Below, piece by piece: positions 11,361 to 25,036 of a DNA stretch of 64,000 nt. Below the pieces are notes generated by a model. It did no database searches, had not been told where the DNA came from, and saw only the letters and a list, made by a program, of their open reading frames with translations. The translations under genes were made by a program, and so were the position numbers. Origin of the DNA: Ignisphaera cupida (GTDB lineage Archaea; Thermoproteota; Thermoprotei_A; Sulfolobales; Ignisphaeraceae); contig NZ_JASNVW010000001.1 of assembly GCF_030186535.1 (NCBI RefSeq), positions 558,001 through 622,000 on the forward strand, in the 5' to 3' direction. Each line of letters starts with the position of its first letter. Position 1 is the stretch's first letter.

Positions 11361-12920
11361 TCACCCTCTTAAACCAAATGTTTTATTATTAAATTTCATA
11401 GACTTTAAAATATTGTAGTATTCTAATCCATCTATAACTGCTTTTGCAATTGCATCAAATATATTGAGAGATACTGCCTGTGTAGACCAAGATAAATACT
11501 TATTGTTAAAACTTATAGTGACTCTAAACATTTTATCTTGTAACAATGAAATTTCAATGCTTATTTTGAGATCATTATCTATAGAATACGCTCTTTTAAC
11601 GGAATCCAGCAAAGCATTAACCAAGGCATTTACAGGATCTATACCAACATCCTTACTCACAATATTATCAACATCAACAACAGCCACTGAAACACCCATA
11701 GAACTTGAAAATACAGTCCAGCTGAACTTATTTACGCCATTGCCTCCATAGCCAAGCTCCTTTAACGCAATTAGCACAGCTGATGCAGCAGCTTTATCAA
11801 ATGTATAGCCTTGTTTCTCTAAATTCTTAATCTTCGCAATAATTCTCTTAATGCGATCATCCTTTTTATCTACATTAATTCCAAAGTCCTTTAAAATAGC
11901 AACAATATTTGCAGCCCCACCTAATTCAGAGATTATAAATTTTCTAGAGTTGCCTACAACTTCAGGATCTATATGTTCATAAGCTTTTGGATTCTTCAAA
12001 ACAGCATCAACATGCACACCACCCTTATGTGCAAATGCAAATTCTCCTACATATGGTTGATAGGGATTCGGCAAAGTATTGGTTATTTTATATACAAGAT
12101 TAGAAACATCTCTAAGTTTCTTCAAATTCTCATCATTTTTCAATACTCTAAACCCAAGTTTAAATCGTATAGATGGAATAACTTGAGTTAGATCAGCATT
12201 ACCCGTTCTCTCACCAATTCCATTTATAGTTCCTTGCACATGTCTAGCACCTGCATAAACTCCAATTAGCGTATTGGCAACAGCACATCCACTATCATTA
12301 TGCATATGAAGACCAACTACACTATTAACATTTTTAACAACATTTTTTACAATGTCGTATACCTCCCAAGGCATCATACCTCCATTTGTATCAGCAAGAA
12401 CTAAAACCCTTGCACCAGCCTCTTCAGCAACTCTAATAACATTCATTGCGTATTCAGAGTCTTCTTTGAATCCTTGGAAGAAGTGTTCAGCATCAAATAT
12501 TACTTCAATTCCATGTTTTCTCAAATAATCTATTGTATCGTATATCATTTCTAGATTCTCTTCTTTAGATGCTTTCAAAACCTCATATACATGAAGAGTC
12601 CATGCCTTTCCAAATATTACTGCTACCTCAACATCGGCTTTTATTATGGCTTCAACATTTTTATCTTGTGCTACATGAACATCCTTTTTTCGAGTACTTC
12701 CAAAAGCTGCTATCTTAGCATTTCTAAGCCCATATTTCTTTATTTCTTTAAAGAATTCCTCGTCCTTAGGATTTGACCCTGGCCAACCACCTTCTATGTA
12801 GTTAACACCTAGGTCATCAAGAGCTAATGCAATTCTTATTTTATCTTCAAGTGAAAATGATACTCCAGCTGCTTGAGAACCATCTCTTAGCGTCGTATCA
12901 AGTACTTCAACCTCGGATTT
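11361..12920 (-). CDS. cimA: (R)-citramalate synthase (CimA, long type), frame lacking a usable start codon
   Basis: The open frame encodes 519 residues, the full family length. It opens with LDTTLRDGSQAAGVSF, then GVNYIEGGWPGSNPKD, the catalytic LHMHNDSGCAVAN and a C-terminal LeuA-type regulatory domain. CimA condenses pyruvate with acetyl-CoA, opening the threonine-independent isoleucine route, which fits its place between ilvC and ilvD. There is no ATG, GTG or TTG between the frame's upstream TAG (12921-12923) and TTG 12578, which lies about 114 codons inside. An ATG (12930-12932) is in frame but is followed by GTG, GTT and the TAG. A second ATG (12947-12949) opens a frame that one extra A in the AAA at 12918-12920 would join to cimA. 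It may be a sequencing error, a recent mutation or recoding. Confidence 0.85.
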   Translation of the reverse strand, partial: KSEVEVLDTTLRDGSQAAGVSFSLEDKIRIALALDDLGVNYIEGGWPGSNPKDEEFFKEIKKYGLRNAKIAAFGSTRKKDVHVAQDKNVEAIIKADVEVAVIFGKAWTLHVYEVLKASKEENLEMIYDTIDYLRKHGIEVIFDAEHFFQGFKEDSEYAMNVIRVAEEAGARVLVLADTNGGMMPWEVYDIVKNVVKNVNSVVGLHMHNDSGCAVANTLIGVYAGARHVQGTINGIGERTGNADLTQVIPSIRFKLGFRVLKNDENLKKLRDVSNLVYKITNTLPNPYQPYVGEFAFAHKGGVHVDAVLKNPKAYEHIDPEVVGNSRKFIISELGGAANIVAILKDFGINVDKKDDRIKRIIAKIKNLEKQGYTFDKAAASAVLIALKELGYGGNGVNKFSWTVFSSSMGVSVAVVDVDNIVSKDVGIDPVNALVNALLDSVKRAYSIDNDLKISIEISLLQDKMFRVTISFNNKYLSWSTQAVSLNIFDAIAKAVIDGLEYYNILKSMKFNNKTFGLRG

Positions 12921-12971
12921 CTAAACCACCATTCACCCACACTCACCATAAAAATGTTTTTACATGTATTA

Positions 12972-13005: not shown

Positions 13006-14321
<1,316 letters not shown>

Positions 14322-14344
<23 letters not shown>

Positions 14345-16052
14345 ATACAATCATCTCTCTAAAGCTACCACCAGGAGGTAAAGTTGGAAGAGCCTTCTCA
14401 TCTCTATTAACAGGTACTCTAATAACAGCTGGCACATTCTCCTTCATAGATTTCCTCAATGCAACCTCAATATCTTCATATGATTGAGCATCAAAACCTA
14501 GAGCACCAAATCCCTCCGCAATCTTTACAAAGTTTGTTGAAGGTCCAAGGTCAACAGCAATTATTCTTCTGTTAAAGAATAAATCTTGCACTTGTCTTAC
14601 AAGACCTAAAGTTCTGTTGTCAAATACTATAGCTATTATTGGTATGTCTTCATCTACCGCTGTTCCAAGATTATTCATAGTCATTATGAAGGAGCCATCA
14701 CCATCTAAATCAACAACAACCTTATCAGGTCTAGCAACCTTGGCTCCCATGGCTGCGGGCAAACCAAATCCCATTGTGCCCATGCCGCCAGATGTTAAAA
14801 ATGTTCTTGGTTCAAAGGATTCCCAGAAAACCCCTGCCCACATCTGGTGAGCGCCTACACCAGTTGTTATTATAGCATCTCTTGGTATTGTATTTCTAAT
14901 TGTTTTTAATATCTTCCACGGTTTCAGCCCTCTTCCATCATCATAGTAATATATTTGAGAGTAGTACTCTTTGTATTCTAATATTTTCCTAATCCATGCA
15001 CTTCTGTCGCTCTTTAAACCAATTTCATGTACAGCTTTAATGAGTTCCTTCAACCCCTTCCTAACATCACTTATTATAAATGATTCTACAGGAAGTTGTA
15101 CAGAAAGTCTCTGAACATCCGTAGGATCAATATTGATAAGAATAAGCTTCTTCTTTGTATCAAGAACATCCTTAATATTCGGAATTGTTCTATCACTTAA
15201 TCTGGCACCTACAACAAGAACAACGTCAGCTTCCATAAATGCCTTGTTTGCTTCTGCCCTTCCATAATAACCCATCATGCCAATGTACAAAGGGTGATCA
15301 TTTGGTATAGCTGATTTGCCAAGTAATGTAGAGACAATTGGCATTCTAAGCATTTCCGCAAGAGCTATAATCTCTTCTGAAGCTGGAGACCAAACAGCTC
15401 CTGCTCCTACAATCATTAAAGGTTTTTCAGCTTCAATCAAGAGTTTAGCTGCTTTCTTAACCATTATAGGATCTATAAACTCTGGAAACTCTCTATACCC
15501 TTTGAATGAAAAACCATTGTACCACTTGATTCTATCACTATCAACATCTTCATTAAATAAGTCTCTTGGAATATCAATCACAACAGGTCCTGGTCTTCCA
15601 GTTGTTGCTATATAAATGGCATTTCTAACCCATATGGGAATATCCTCAGCCTTTCTTATTTGTATAGCAAACTTCGTTATATTAGCTACAACCCCAGGTA
15701 TATCAGCTTCTTGAAATGATAATTTGCCTAAGCTTGATCTTGTTACTTGACCAGTTATTGCAATGACAGGAGAACTATCCCAATAAGCAGTTGCAAGACC
15801 GGTTACAAGATTAAGTGCACCTGGTCCTGATGTAGCTGTGCAAAAACCTGGTTTTCCAGAGGCTCTTGCATAACCATCTGCTGCATGTGCTGCCCCCTGT
15901 TCATGTCTCATGATAATAACTCTTATGTCATTGTTTGCTACATATTCTACTAAAGCATCATAGAATGCCATGTTTGATAATCCAGGAATTCCAAAGATTA
16001 CCTTCACACCCTCTCTCTTTAGAGTCTCAGCTAAAAGCACCGAGCCCTTCAT
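14322..16052 (-). CDS. ilvB: Acetolactate synthase, catalytic (large) subunit
   Basis: This ThDP enzyme of about 576 residues makes acetolactate from two pyruvates, or acetohydroxybutyrate from pyruvate and 2-oxobutyrate. The catalytic Glu is in RHEQGAAHAADGYARASG (about residue 51). Other blocks are ATSGPGALNLVTG and the ThDP/Mg motif GDGSFIMTMNNLGTAV running to VFDN near 450-480. An in-frame GTG at 16061 is possible. ATG 16052 is better because GGTGAG lies 4-5 nt before it. The gene heads the minus-strand set ilvB-ilvN-ilvC-cimA-ilvD. Its leader is unusually long for an archaeal mRNA and holds small ORFs (separate entries). Confidence 0.94.
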
Positions 16053-16057
16053 AATAC

Positions 16058-16144
16058 TCACCTTATCAGAATAAGCAAAAGATTCAACAACAGATTGCTA
16101 TCTTTTCCATAACTCAATTTGCTGTTTCTGCTTTTGCTCTCCAT
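16058..16144 (-). CDS. Small leader ORF, 28 codons, Leu/Ile-rich C-terminus, in front of ilvB
   Basis: From ATG 16144 the frame runs 28 codons to TGA 16058-16060. The last eleven residues are LLLNLLLILIR: six Leu and two Ile, i.e. the products of this pathway. The stop lies inside the GGTGAG ribosome binding site of ilvB (the TGA overlaps the alternative GTG start by GTGA). A ribosome stalled or terminating here would therefore directly affect ilvB initiation. No clear ribosome binding site precedes ATG 16144, and another small frame (from ATG 16156-16154, 14 codons) overlaps it. Translation is unproven. Confidence 0.4.
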   Translation of the reverse strand: MESKSRNSKLSYGKDSNLLLNLLLILIR

Positions 16145-16161
16145 AGACGAATTTGCATTGC

Positions 16162-16182
16162 TTAACTGACTTGGAGTTCCAT
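16162..16182 (-). CDS. Six-codon upstream ORF with strong ribosome binding site in the ilvB leader
   Basis: ATG 16180-16182 opens MELQVS followed by TAA. It is preceded by GGTGATGGTG, which places a perfect GGTGA 5 nt before the ATG, the same spacing as at ilvB itself. It could load ribosomes onto the leader ahead of the Leu/Ile-rich ORF. It may equally be chance, given its length. Confidence 0.25.
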   Translation of the reverse strand: MELQVS

Positions 16183-16245
16183 CACCATCACCTAACCATA
16201 TCTTAATACATTTATCTCAGGTACTTCTTATTTTGTGTATGAGCA

Positions 16246-16260
16246 GGTTTTTAAATTTTT
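16246..16260 (-). promoter_or_regulatory. TATA-like promoter element of the ilvB operon
   Basis: The minus strand reads AAATTTAAAAACCTG, a good crenarchaeal TATA box. Transcription would start near 16226, giving a leader of about 170 nt before ilvB. The 16053-16349 gap also holds the divergent leuA promoter. Confidence 0.45.
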
Positions 16261-16293
16261 TAGGTGCTTATACATGTTTAATTGTGCATAATA

Positions 16294-16304: not shown

Positions 16305-16349
16305 TGACTCAACACTTCTTAGCATTGGACAAAAGCCAAGCTTGGAGGT

Positions 16350-17540
16350 GTGTTTATTGCTCCAACTCAAAATAGTTTAGACTATATACAAAGAAAAAGT
16401 GAAAAGAGAGTTGTAAGACTATTGGATACAACATTAAGAGACGGAGAGCAAATGCCTGGAATTTCTCTAACATCACAGCAAAAACTTGAAATAGCGTTGG
16501 CTCTAAATGATTTAGGTGTTGATTCTATAGAGGCTGGTTTTCCAATTACTAGCAGAGGAGAGTTTGAAGCTGTAAAAAGAATTGCTAAAGAGATCAGAGG
16601 TTCAGAGGTTATAGCCTTGGCTAGAGCAAATAAACAAGATATTGATAAGGTTATCGAAGCTGAGGTGCCAGCTGTTCATACATTTATAGCCACATCTGAG
16701 CTGCATATGAAGTACAAGCTTAAGCTTAGCCCTGAGCAAGTTGTTGAAAAAGCTGTTTCAGCTGTTGAATATGCTAAAAGTCATGGTTTAGTAGTAGAGT
16801 TTAGTGCTGAAGATGCTACAAGATCTAATTTGCAGTTCCTAAGCAGGGTATTTCAAGCTGTTGTTAATGCAGGAGCAGATAGAATAGATATTGCAGATAC
16901 TGTTGGAGTTGCATATCCAAGTTACATTGCCTTTATAACAACATATATTAGATCGTCTGTAAAAGGAAACTATCTACTAAGTGTTCACTGTCACAATGAT
17001 TTTGGCATGGCCGTTGCAAACAGTGTTACAGCTATTGAGAATGGGGCTGACCAAGCTCATGTCACAGTTCTTGGGGTTGGTGAAAGAGCAGGAAATGCTG
17101 CATTAGAAGAAGTTGCAACCGCACTAGCATTCCTATATGGATATAAAGTCAAGATAGATTTTAGTAAAATAAACAAGGTTGCAAAACTTGTTTCATCATA
17201 TTTCGGAATACAAATACCGCCAAACAAGGCTATTGTAGGTGCAAATGCATTTTCGCATGAGTCTGGTATTCATGTTCATGGTATATTAAGTTATCCTCTT
17301 ACATATGAGCCTTTAGATCCTTCAATTGTTGGTGCAGAGAGAAGAATTGTTATAGGAAAGCATAGTGGACGACATGCAATTGAATATGTTATTAAACAGC
17401 TTGGATTAGAGCCTAGAGAAGAGGCTATAAAGAATATCTTGAATAAAGTAAAGGATTTAGCTGACCAAGGAATTAAAATTACATGGGAATTGATACTAAA
17501 ACTTGTGAAAGAGGAATATGGGGATGTGAATAATGTATAG
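16350..17540 (+). CDS. leuA: 2-isopropylmalate synthase-like enzyme without regulatory domain
   Basis: This 396-residue member of the isopropylmalate/homocitrate/citramalate synthase family condenses acetyl-CoA with a 2-oxo acid. The catalytic motif LLDTTLRDGEQMPG is at 24-37, EAGFPITSRGEFEAV follows, metal His are in SVHCHNDFGMAVANS (about 211-225), and ANAFSHESGIHVHG is near 300. The roughly 120-residue C-terminal allosteric domain is absent, so leucine feedback is not expected here. Pairing with leuB next to ilv genes favours leucine synthesis; a homocitrate role cannot be excluded. GTG 16350 is the only canonical start that keeps the first strand. GGAGG sits only 1 nt before it, closer than usual. 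Confidence 0.85.
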   Translation: MFIAPTQNSLDYIQRKSEKRVVRLLDTTLRDGEQMPGISLTSQQKLEIALALNDLGVDSIEAGFPITSRGEFEAVKRIAKEIRGSEVIALARANKQDIDKVIEAEVPAVHTFIATSELHMKYKLKLSPEQVVEKAVSAVEYAKSHGLVVEFSAEDATRSNLQFLSRVFQAVVNAGADRIDIADTVGVAYPSYIAFITTYIRSSVKGNYLLSVHCHNDFGMAVANSVTAIENGADQAHVTVLGVGERAGNAALEEVATALAFLYGYKVKIDFSKINKVAKLVSSYFGIQIPPNKAIVGANAFSHESGIHVHGILSYPLTYEPLDPSIVGAERRIVIGKHSGRHAIEYVIKQLGLEPREEAIKNILNKVKDLADQGIKITWELILKLVKEEYGDVNNV

Positions 17541-24897: not shown

Positions 24898-24911
24898 AAA
24901 TATTTATATGT
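24898..24911 (-). promoter_or_regulatory. TATA-like promoter element of the his operon
   Basis: The minus strand reads CATATAAATATTTA, about 26-35 nt before TTG 24874. This is the only clear promoter for the nine overlapping his genes. Confidence 0.45.
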
Positions 24912-25036
24912 GCAATCCAAGACCCCTTTCAACTAAAACTTTATCAATTTATGTTTTGCTCTAATTTAAAAGCTTATAGCAAGCAAAAGTCATAAAAGTA
25001 TATATTCTAGAACGAATTATTATAATCTGTGAGAAA

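Follow-up and report, generated by a model that had tools for sequence, protein, structure and literature searches.

The ilvB operon and its leader ORF

The window, a stretch of 64,000 nucleotides from Ignisphaera cupida, contains an operon in which ilvB comes first and is followed by a small ORF in the position of ilvN and then by ilvC, cimA and ilvD, with leuA and leuB divergent from it. According to the NCBIfam profile, the ilvB product is a full-length acetolactate synthase large subunit. The 120-aa ORF in the position of the small subunit (13988–14350, minus strand) matched no NCBIfam model, suggesting that the regulatory subunit is unusual or very divergent. The following features were distinguished at ilvB and in its leader:

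16246–16261, minus strand: predicted promoter element (TATA-like) for the ilvB operon, AAAAAATTTAAAAACC
16181–16192, minus strand: Shine-Dalgarno-like GGTGATGGTGAT ahead of the short ORF
16162–16182, minus strand: putative sensor ORF MELQVS-stop, ATGGAACTCCAAGTCAGTTAA, read as ATG GAA CTC CAA GTC AGT TAA behind GGTGAT
16168–16180, minus strand: proposed −1 slip sites G-GAA CTC and C-CAA GTC (hyphen ahead of the P-site codon), at each of which the first base of the P-site codon is also the base 5′ of it
16058–16174, minus strand: stop-free −1 path, which begins CCA AGT, ends with the TGA at the ilvB start and includes the 28-codon ORF (based on stop counts in Ignisphaera and Sulfolobaceae)
16058–16144, minus strand: 28-codon ORF with the C-terminus LLLNLLLILIR
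14322–16061, minus strand: ilvB, acetolactate synthase large subunit, with its start at GTG 16059–16061 or ATG 16050–16052 (NCBIfam NF005039, 991 bits)

The TATA-like element, the six-codon ORF with its GGTGA, the 28-codon ORF and the TGA within GGTGAG (16058–16060, overlapping the ilvB GTG at 16059–16061) were all found where the preliminary description had placed them. An equivalent TATA-like element lies 50–73 nt 5′ of the short ORF in 10 of 10 Ignisphaera leaders, and a Shine-Dalgarno sequence (at least 5 nt) before the short ORF is present in nine of the ten. MELQVS-stop carries a Leu (CTC) and a Val (GTC) codon immediately ahead of its stop; CTC, GTC and ATC are rare in the source genome, where each accounts for about 4–5% of its codon family.

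The short ORF was conserved throughout the genus. Searched at zero mismatches, GATGGAACTCCAAGT, which encodes MELQV and has one variable codon and then a stop behind it, occurred exactly once per genome in ten Ignisphaera genomes, always before ilvB, and had no match in the remaining genomes of the same search. All ten genomes read MELQV-x-stop, ending in AGT TAA, AGC TGA, ATG TAA, CGT TAA, CAA TAA or CAT TAA, with synonymous swaps at the Val codon (GTC/GTT/GTA) and both TAA and TGA as the stop. The short ORF is thus conserved at the level of codons: its start, Leu, Val and stop persist although silent positions and the type of stop vary.

We read the ilvB leaders of more than 60 genomes of the order and of about 80 more from the phylum, many of them incomplete, and found related tiny ORFs in most, throughout Sulfolobales and also further out in Thermoproteota. 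A count made without selection by eye gave 47 small ORFs preceded by a Shine-Dalgarno sequence in 64 ilvB leaders, four times as many as in dinucleotide shuffles (11.3 ± 3.1), and 94% of these ORFs carry Leu, Ile or Val among their last three codons. Sulfolobaceae have the form M...LQ[VI]-stop (MIGDCTLQV, MKGEYTLQI and MIGEFSLQI, each followed by a stop). In other families the ORFs read MELEVxQIH-stop (f2, for instance MELEVRQIH), MPLELR-stop (f6), MELWVMPLEIR-stop (f4), and MKRDRALQVH-stop and MSGGTLQVH-stop (f43 and f39). Family f7 has up to three tandem ORFs, for Val, Ile and Leu (MVSMSNVPM, MVQMSNIM and MQSKMELAW, each with a stop). Outside the phylum, Ferroplasma acidarmanus (MKSVSRFI-stop) and a Thermoplasmata MAG (MNSVRSFI-stop) have such an ORF before an ilvB that is Sulfolobales-like (56–57% identity) and was probably transferred; in both, the −1 frame stays open until a stop codon that overlaps the start of ilvB. 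Among Nitrososphaeria-type leaders (L112, L114) there was no clear case.

At the f7 loci L023–L025 and L074–L077, two or three tandem short ORFs share one frame and have a different branched-chain residue at the equivalent place, and the −1 frame runs into ilvB. In Methanomethylicota (f19; L088, L090, L195, L196), two chained short ORFs precede ilvB, and the stop of the first, MVKKVTGVFGDTLL-stop, overlaps the start of the second, which is rich in Leu, Ile and Val. In f26 (L099, L100, L103, L182–L188), a conserved inverted repeat, GGAGG...CCTCC around a loop of 8 nt, lies in the sensor ORF and may stimulate frameshifting. In the distant Thermoproteota L082, L107, L115 and L116 (f15, f49 and f31), long leader peptides rich in Leu, Ile and Val, such as MRTRSLLVNLQIVIPLIVIVILI-stop, occur with inverted repeats nearby and look like conventional hairpin attenuators.

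The shifted frame between the short ORF and ilvB

We counted stop codons between the sensing codon and ilvB in the frame of the short ORF and in its +1 and −1 frames. The counts were 49, 27 and 0 in the ten Ignisphaera leaders, against 25.6 ± 4.7 per frame in shuffles (minimum 14 in 300); 154, 0 and 0 in 29 Sulfolobaceae leaders, against 55.5 ± 6.4; and 43, 33 and 2 in other families. These shuffles take no account of phylogeny, but thinning to one genome per lineage gave the same picture. Four more distant families are open in the +1 frame instead (f26, f17, f32 and f19, with 0, 0, 0 and 1 stops where 17.6, 10.4, 1.8 and 15.8 were expected); the choice between +1 and −1 was made for each family after seeing the data, at a cost of at most a factor of two.

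The −1 path is also tied to the gene at its far end. In 53 of 65 loci its stop lies between −15 and +17 nt from the first residue of the ilvB alignment and in 11 (f4 and f7) it is the ilvB frame itself, so that the arrangement characteristic of regulatory programmed frameshifting, a short zero-frame ORF overlapped by a shifted frame open to the gene, was found at 64 of the 65; at the remaining locus, L095, the −1 path is closed and the +1 frame open. In several species and at many loci, including L003, L008 and most Sulfolobaceae, the shifted frame contains no start codon and is preceded by an in-frame stop 3–8 codons upstream, indicating that entry must occur inside the short ORF. Substitutions in the path fall evenly over the three codon positions (107/103/111), so we rejected a conserved peptide as its product; it is openness that appears to be selected. 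A frame that is open, not conserved in sequence and lacking a start is what would be expected if ribosomes entered it by slipping within the short ORF.

These results change the role of the 28-codon ORF, which is the tail of the −1 path. The preliminary description had viewed the leader as attenuator-like and the LLLNLLLILIR run as its sensor. An amino-acid-sensing leader is upheld by our analysis, with the six-codon ORF and not the 28-codon ORF as the probable sensor; the Leu/Ile-rich run is missing from the aligned leaders of relatives, whose paths end instead in ...MLTVGQGSIKILIR-stop, ...PIAYTPSLHGE-stop or ...VNNDEVLR-stop, and was rejected as not conserved, an outcome that the preliminary description had itself named as refuting. 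The importance that had been attached to the position of the TGA at the ilvB start was borne out, since the −1 path ends there, and this overlap appears to be part of the design.

The codons around the presumed point of entry may permit a backward slip. At ilvB the last sensing codon follows CAA, GAA or GGA, and at all 65 loci this preceding codon obeys an X-Xnn rule, its first base being repeated immediately 5′ of it (background, 23%). Such a site allows −1 re-pairing at two or more of the three positions; re-pairing is partial, CAA to CCA and GAA to GGA each keeping two of three pairs. In Ignisphaera both sensing codons obey the rule. Slips in the +1 direction would be weaker than −1 slips, and their sites are poorly defined. 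In Sulfolobaceae, Leu is preceded by ACC, TCC or a similar codon, a context fitting +1 better than −1 and a possible reason for the openness of both frames in this family. Its leaders have an internal GGTGA, 4 nt ahead of ACC and 10 nt ahead of CAA; the internal Shine-Dalgarno sequences of prfB and dnaX have similar spacings.

Short ORFs at leuA, cimA, hisC and trpB2

Overlapping short ORFs were also found at further amino-acid biosynthesis genes, and the window contains the following:

12907–12936, minus strand: putative cimA sensor ORF MNGGLEIRG-stop, GTG AAT GGT GGT TTA GAA ATC CGA GGT TGA, with the Ile codon ATC at 12916–12918
11361–12920, minus strand: cimA, citramalate synthase, start-less and read +1 relative to the sensor ORF (TIGR00977, 386 bits)
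16348–16380, plus strand: short ORF overlapping leuA, GTG TGT TTA TTG CTC CAA CTC AAA ATA GTT TAG, with leuA (GTG 16350) in its −1 frame
24904–24915, minus strand: putative hisC sensor ORF TTG CAC ATA TAA (MHI-stop)
24914–24916 onward, minus strand: hisC, in the −1 frame from ATT GCA CAT, running to 23864

The cimA product catalyses the initial reaction of the citramalate route to Ile. An overlapping short ORF with [EQK]-Ile was present at all 47 cimA loci, and cimA lies in its +1 frame. In the window, TAG at 12921–12923 is in frame with cimA and directly 5′ of KSEVEVLDTTLRDG; in 8 of 10 Ignisphaera, this one included, a TAG abuts KSxVEVLDTTLRDG in the cimA frame and there is no start codon. 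Twelve of the 47 genes have no canonical start nearby in their own frame. At L307, AAG replaces the TAG ahead of the cimA body, leading to a GTG start, and its close relatives L302–L306 keep the TAG.

A short ORF with early Leu codons, defined by a loose pattern, was present at 30 of 31 leuA loci. It contains TTG CTC CAA CTC in Ignisphaera, with leuA in the −1 frame, and reads ATG AGT ATT CTC TGG AGC TAA in Sulfolobaceae, with leuA in the +1 frame. No start was found within 95 nt in the frame of leuA at 13 of the 31 loci; leuA of the window has its own GTG.

The his operon opens with hisC, and in 26 of 26 hisC loci a His codon, either CAC or CAT, directly follows TTG. The gene begins ATT GCA in the −1 frame and has no canonical start in 10 of the 26; initiation of hisC at AUU could be an alternative. 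At trpB2, the first gene of the trp operon, the short ORF ends in xQW-stop in 26 of 30 loci (MSQW, LHQW, VRQW or LYQW before the stop); its start varies between ATG, TTG and GTG, and CAA is invariably preceded by a codon with a final C. trpB2 is its −1 frame, and the trpB2 ATG overlaps the stop of the short ORF (ATGGTAA). Second, non-operon copies of trpB2 in Ignisphaera (L440–L443, L450, L451) are preceded by M[HR]QWx-stop or LRQWR-stop with trpB2 in the −1 frame (6/6). There was no Trp ORF at the second trpB2 copies of the other six genomes examined, Sulfolobaceae included, or at the trpB2 near ilvB in an Ignicoccus-like group. The ilvD loci that were read have their own starts and no such leader ORF, which makes them a useful negative control, and trpE was rejected as a further case, being internal to its operon. 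Judging from these ORFs, the sensing codon of the leader changes with the pathway: Ile at cimA, Leu at leuA, His at hisC and Trp at trpB2.

A predicted frameshift switch, its alternatives and known systems

Conserved short ORFs, codons matching the pathway, stop-free shifted frames and start-less genes recur at these loci. We consider it highly probable that the ilvB leader is a ribosome-frameshift switch sensing branched-chain amino acids, and that leuA, cimA, hisC and trpB2 use the same device. Ribosomes would load at GGTGAT-ATG and translate MELQV-x. When Leu and Val are plentiful, they would terminate after six codons and leave, some 100 nt short of ilvB. A shortage of Leu-tRNA or Val-tRNA would make them pause while GAA or CAA occupies the P site and the A site presents an empty ("hungry") codon, and the P-site tRNA would slip back one base, from G-GAA to GGA or from C-CAA to CCA. 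The slipped ribosome would bypass the stop of the short ORF, read the stop-free −1 frame to the stop overlapping the ilvB start, and re-initiate there; it may also protect the ilvB mRNA from termination. In some lineages ilvB itself occupies the shifted frame, and there the slipped ribosome would continue directly into the gene. At leuA, cimA, hisC and trpB2, a codon of the relevant amino acid would act through a −1 or +1 shift, the identity of the slipping tRNA being least certain for +1. The match of pathway to codon, together with the rare codons CTC, GTC and ATC, which would sharpen the response, suggests a dependence on uncharged tRNA, and the sign of such a switch would be right for feedback control. 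For the start-less genes, slipping would be the only route that can be seen from the sequence; ilvB, trpB2 and the leuA of the window keep a canonical start, at which direct initiation would be the alternative.

It also seems likely that frameshift switches of this type, sensing starvation for Leu, Ile, Val, His or Trp, form a general family in Thermoproteota. Ribosomes would arrive at the first enzyme of the pathway only or mainly after a slip within a tiny decoy ORF, at a codon whose tRNA is uncharged, and several enzymes would have lost their own start codons as a result.

Classical leader-peptide attenuation, in which a stall at the short ORF would refold the RNA, exposing the ilvB binding site or blocking a terminator without any frameshift, is improbable. 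In its favour, the 5′ part of the leader has a short ORF containing branched-chain codons, the codons of MELQVS-stop and its relatives are those expected of an attenuator, and the long Leu/Ile/Val-rich ORFs of the distant archaea L082, L107 and L115 would fit it. However, the fold of the ilvB leader was no more stable than that of shuffles (z −0.45), and an Rfam 15 scan gave five matches, all far under the gathering threshold and at chance level, so that neither analysis revealed the alternative terminator and antiterminator hairpins of bacterial-type attenuators. Attenuation also leaves the stop-free shifted frame and the start-less leuA, cimA and hisC unexplained. The same holds for the proposal in the preliminary description that a slow ribosome covering the ilvB binding site was the switch: it does not explain why the −1 frame running from the short ORF to ilvB is stop-free, and start-less in several species, or why many genomes have start-less leuA, cimA and hisC.

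A relay by termination and re-initiation, in which ribosomes would complete the short ORF and start again further downstream while the overlaps reflect translational coupling only, is still less probable. Stops do overlap the ilvB start at most loci, and the trpB2 ATG overlaps the stop of its short ORF, but the shifted frame often has no start (L003, L008 and most Sulfolobaceae), leuA and cimA are often start-less, and simple coupling would turn the genes on when amino acids are plentiful, which is the wrong sign. Least credible is a nucleotide-level element, a protein- or RNA-binding site encoding these peptides by chance: CTCCAA is almost invariant in nucleotide sequence across families, but exchanges occur at the level of codons (GTC/GTT/GTA/ATT, TAA/TGA, CAC/CAT in hisC, ATG/TTG/GTG starts in trpB2), each pathway has a different amino acid, and the stops are phased over 100 nt downstream. 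An operator for a transcription factor in the transcribed leader is disfavoured because codon-level swaps are tolerated and the downstream stops are phased.

We found no description of a frameshift switch of this kind in the open-access literature, as distinct from subscription papers and preprints, and it has apparently not been described before; by 2021 a single case of programmed −1 frameshifting had been demonstrated among archaea (PMC8211752). If the frameshift reading is true, a large group of archaea has a general amino-acid control system. In that case several core biosynthetic genes of well-known species are also likely mis-annotated or without an annotatable start, and the leaders provide a directly testable set in a genetically tractable genus, Sulfolobus.

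Among known systems, the ermC leader, as outlined in PMC5009743 (citing Gupta et al. 2013), shows regulatory frameshifting induced by telithromycin: as proposed here, a ribosome in difficulty on a short leader ORF shifts frame into the spacer and the downstream gene is initiated, but in that account the trigger is an antibiotic, the target is one bacterial resistance gene and this gene has its own start. The bacterial ilv, leu, his and trp attenuators, such as that of C. glutamicum ilvBNC (PMC11857589), likewise place a leader ORF with end-product codons before the operon. They work through alternative hairpins and a terminator, whereas the archaeal leaders have one or two sensing codons and a shifted frame open to the gene, and that of the window has no conserved hairpin. 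Antizyme (+1) and RF2 prfB (+1) resemble the proposed device in using frameshift efficiency as the sensor and in getting past a stop so that a gene is expressed. Their signals are polyamines or release factor, whereas the archaeal device would serve five amino-acid pathways, use −1 and +1 shifts and, at ilvB, mostly deliver ribosomes instead of making a fused product. A further parallel is hungry-codon frameshifting, reportedly described in E. coli by Gallant and Lindsley, in which the ribosome slips at a codon whose aminoacyl-tRNA is scarce; the difference is that this is known as a laboratory phenomenon. A 2016 review knew of no example in which such shifting makes a product with a starvation function (PMC5009743), and the leaders described here, if they work as proposed, would be the first case in nature of hungry-codon frameshifting that serves as a sensor.
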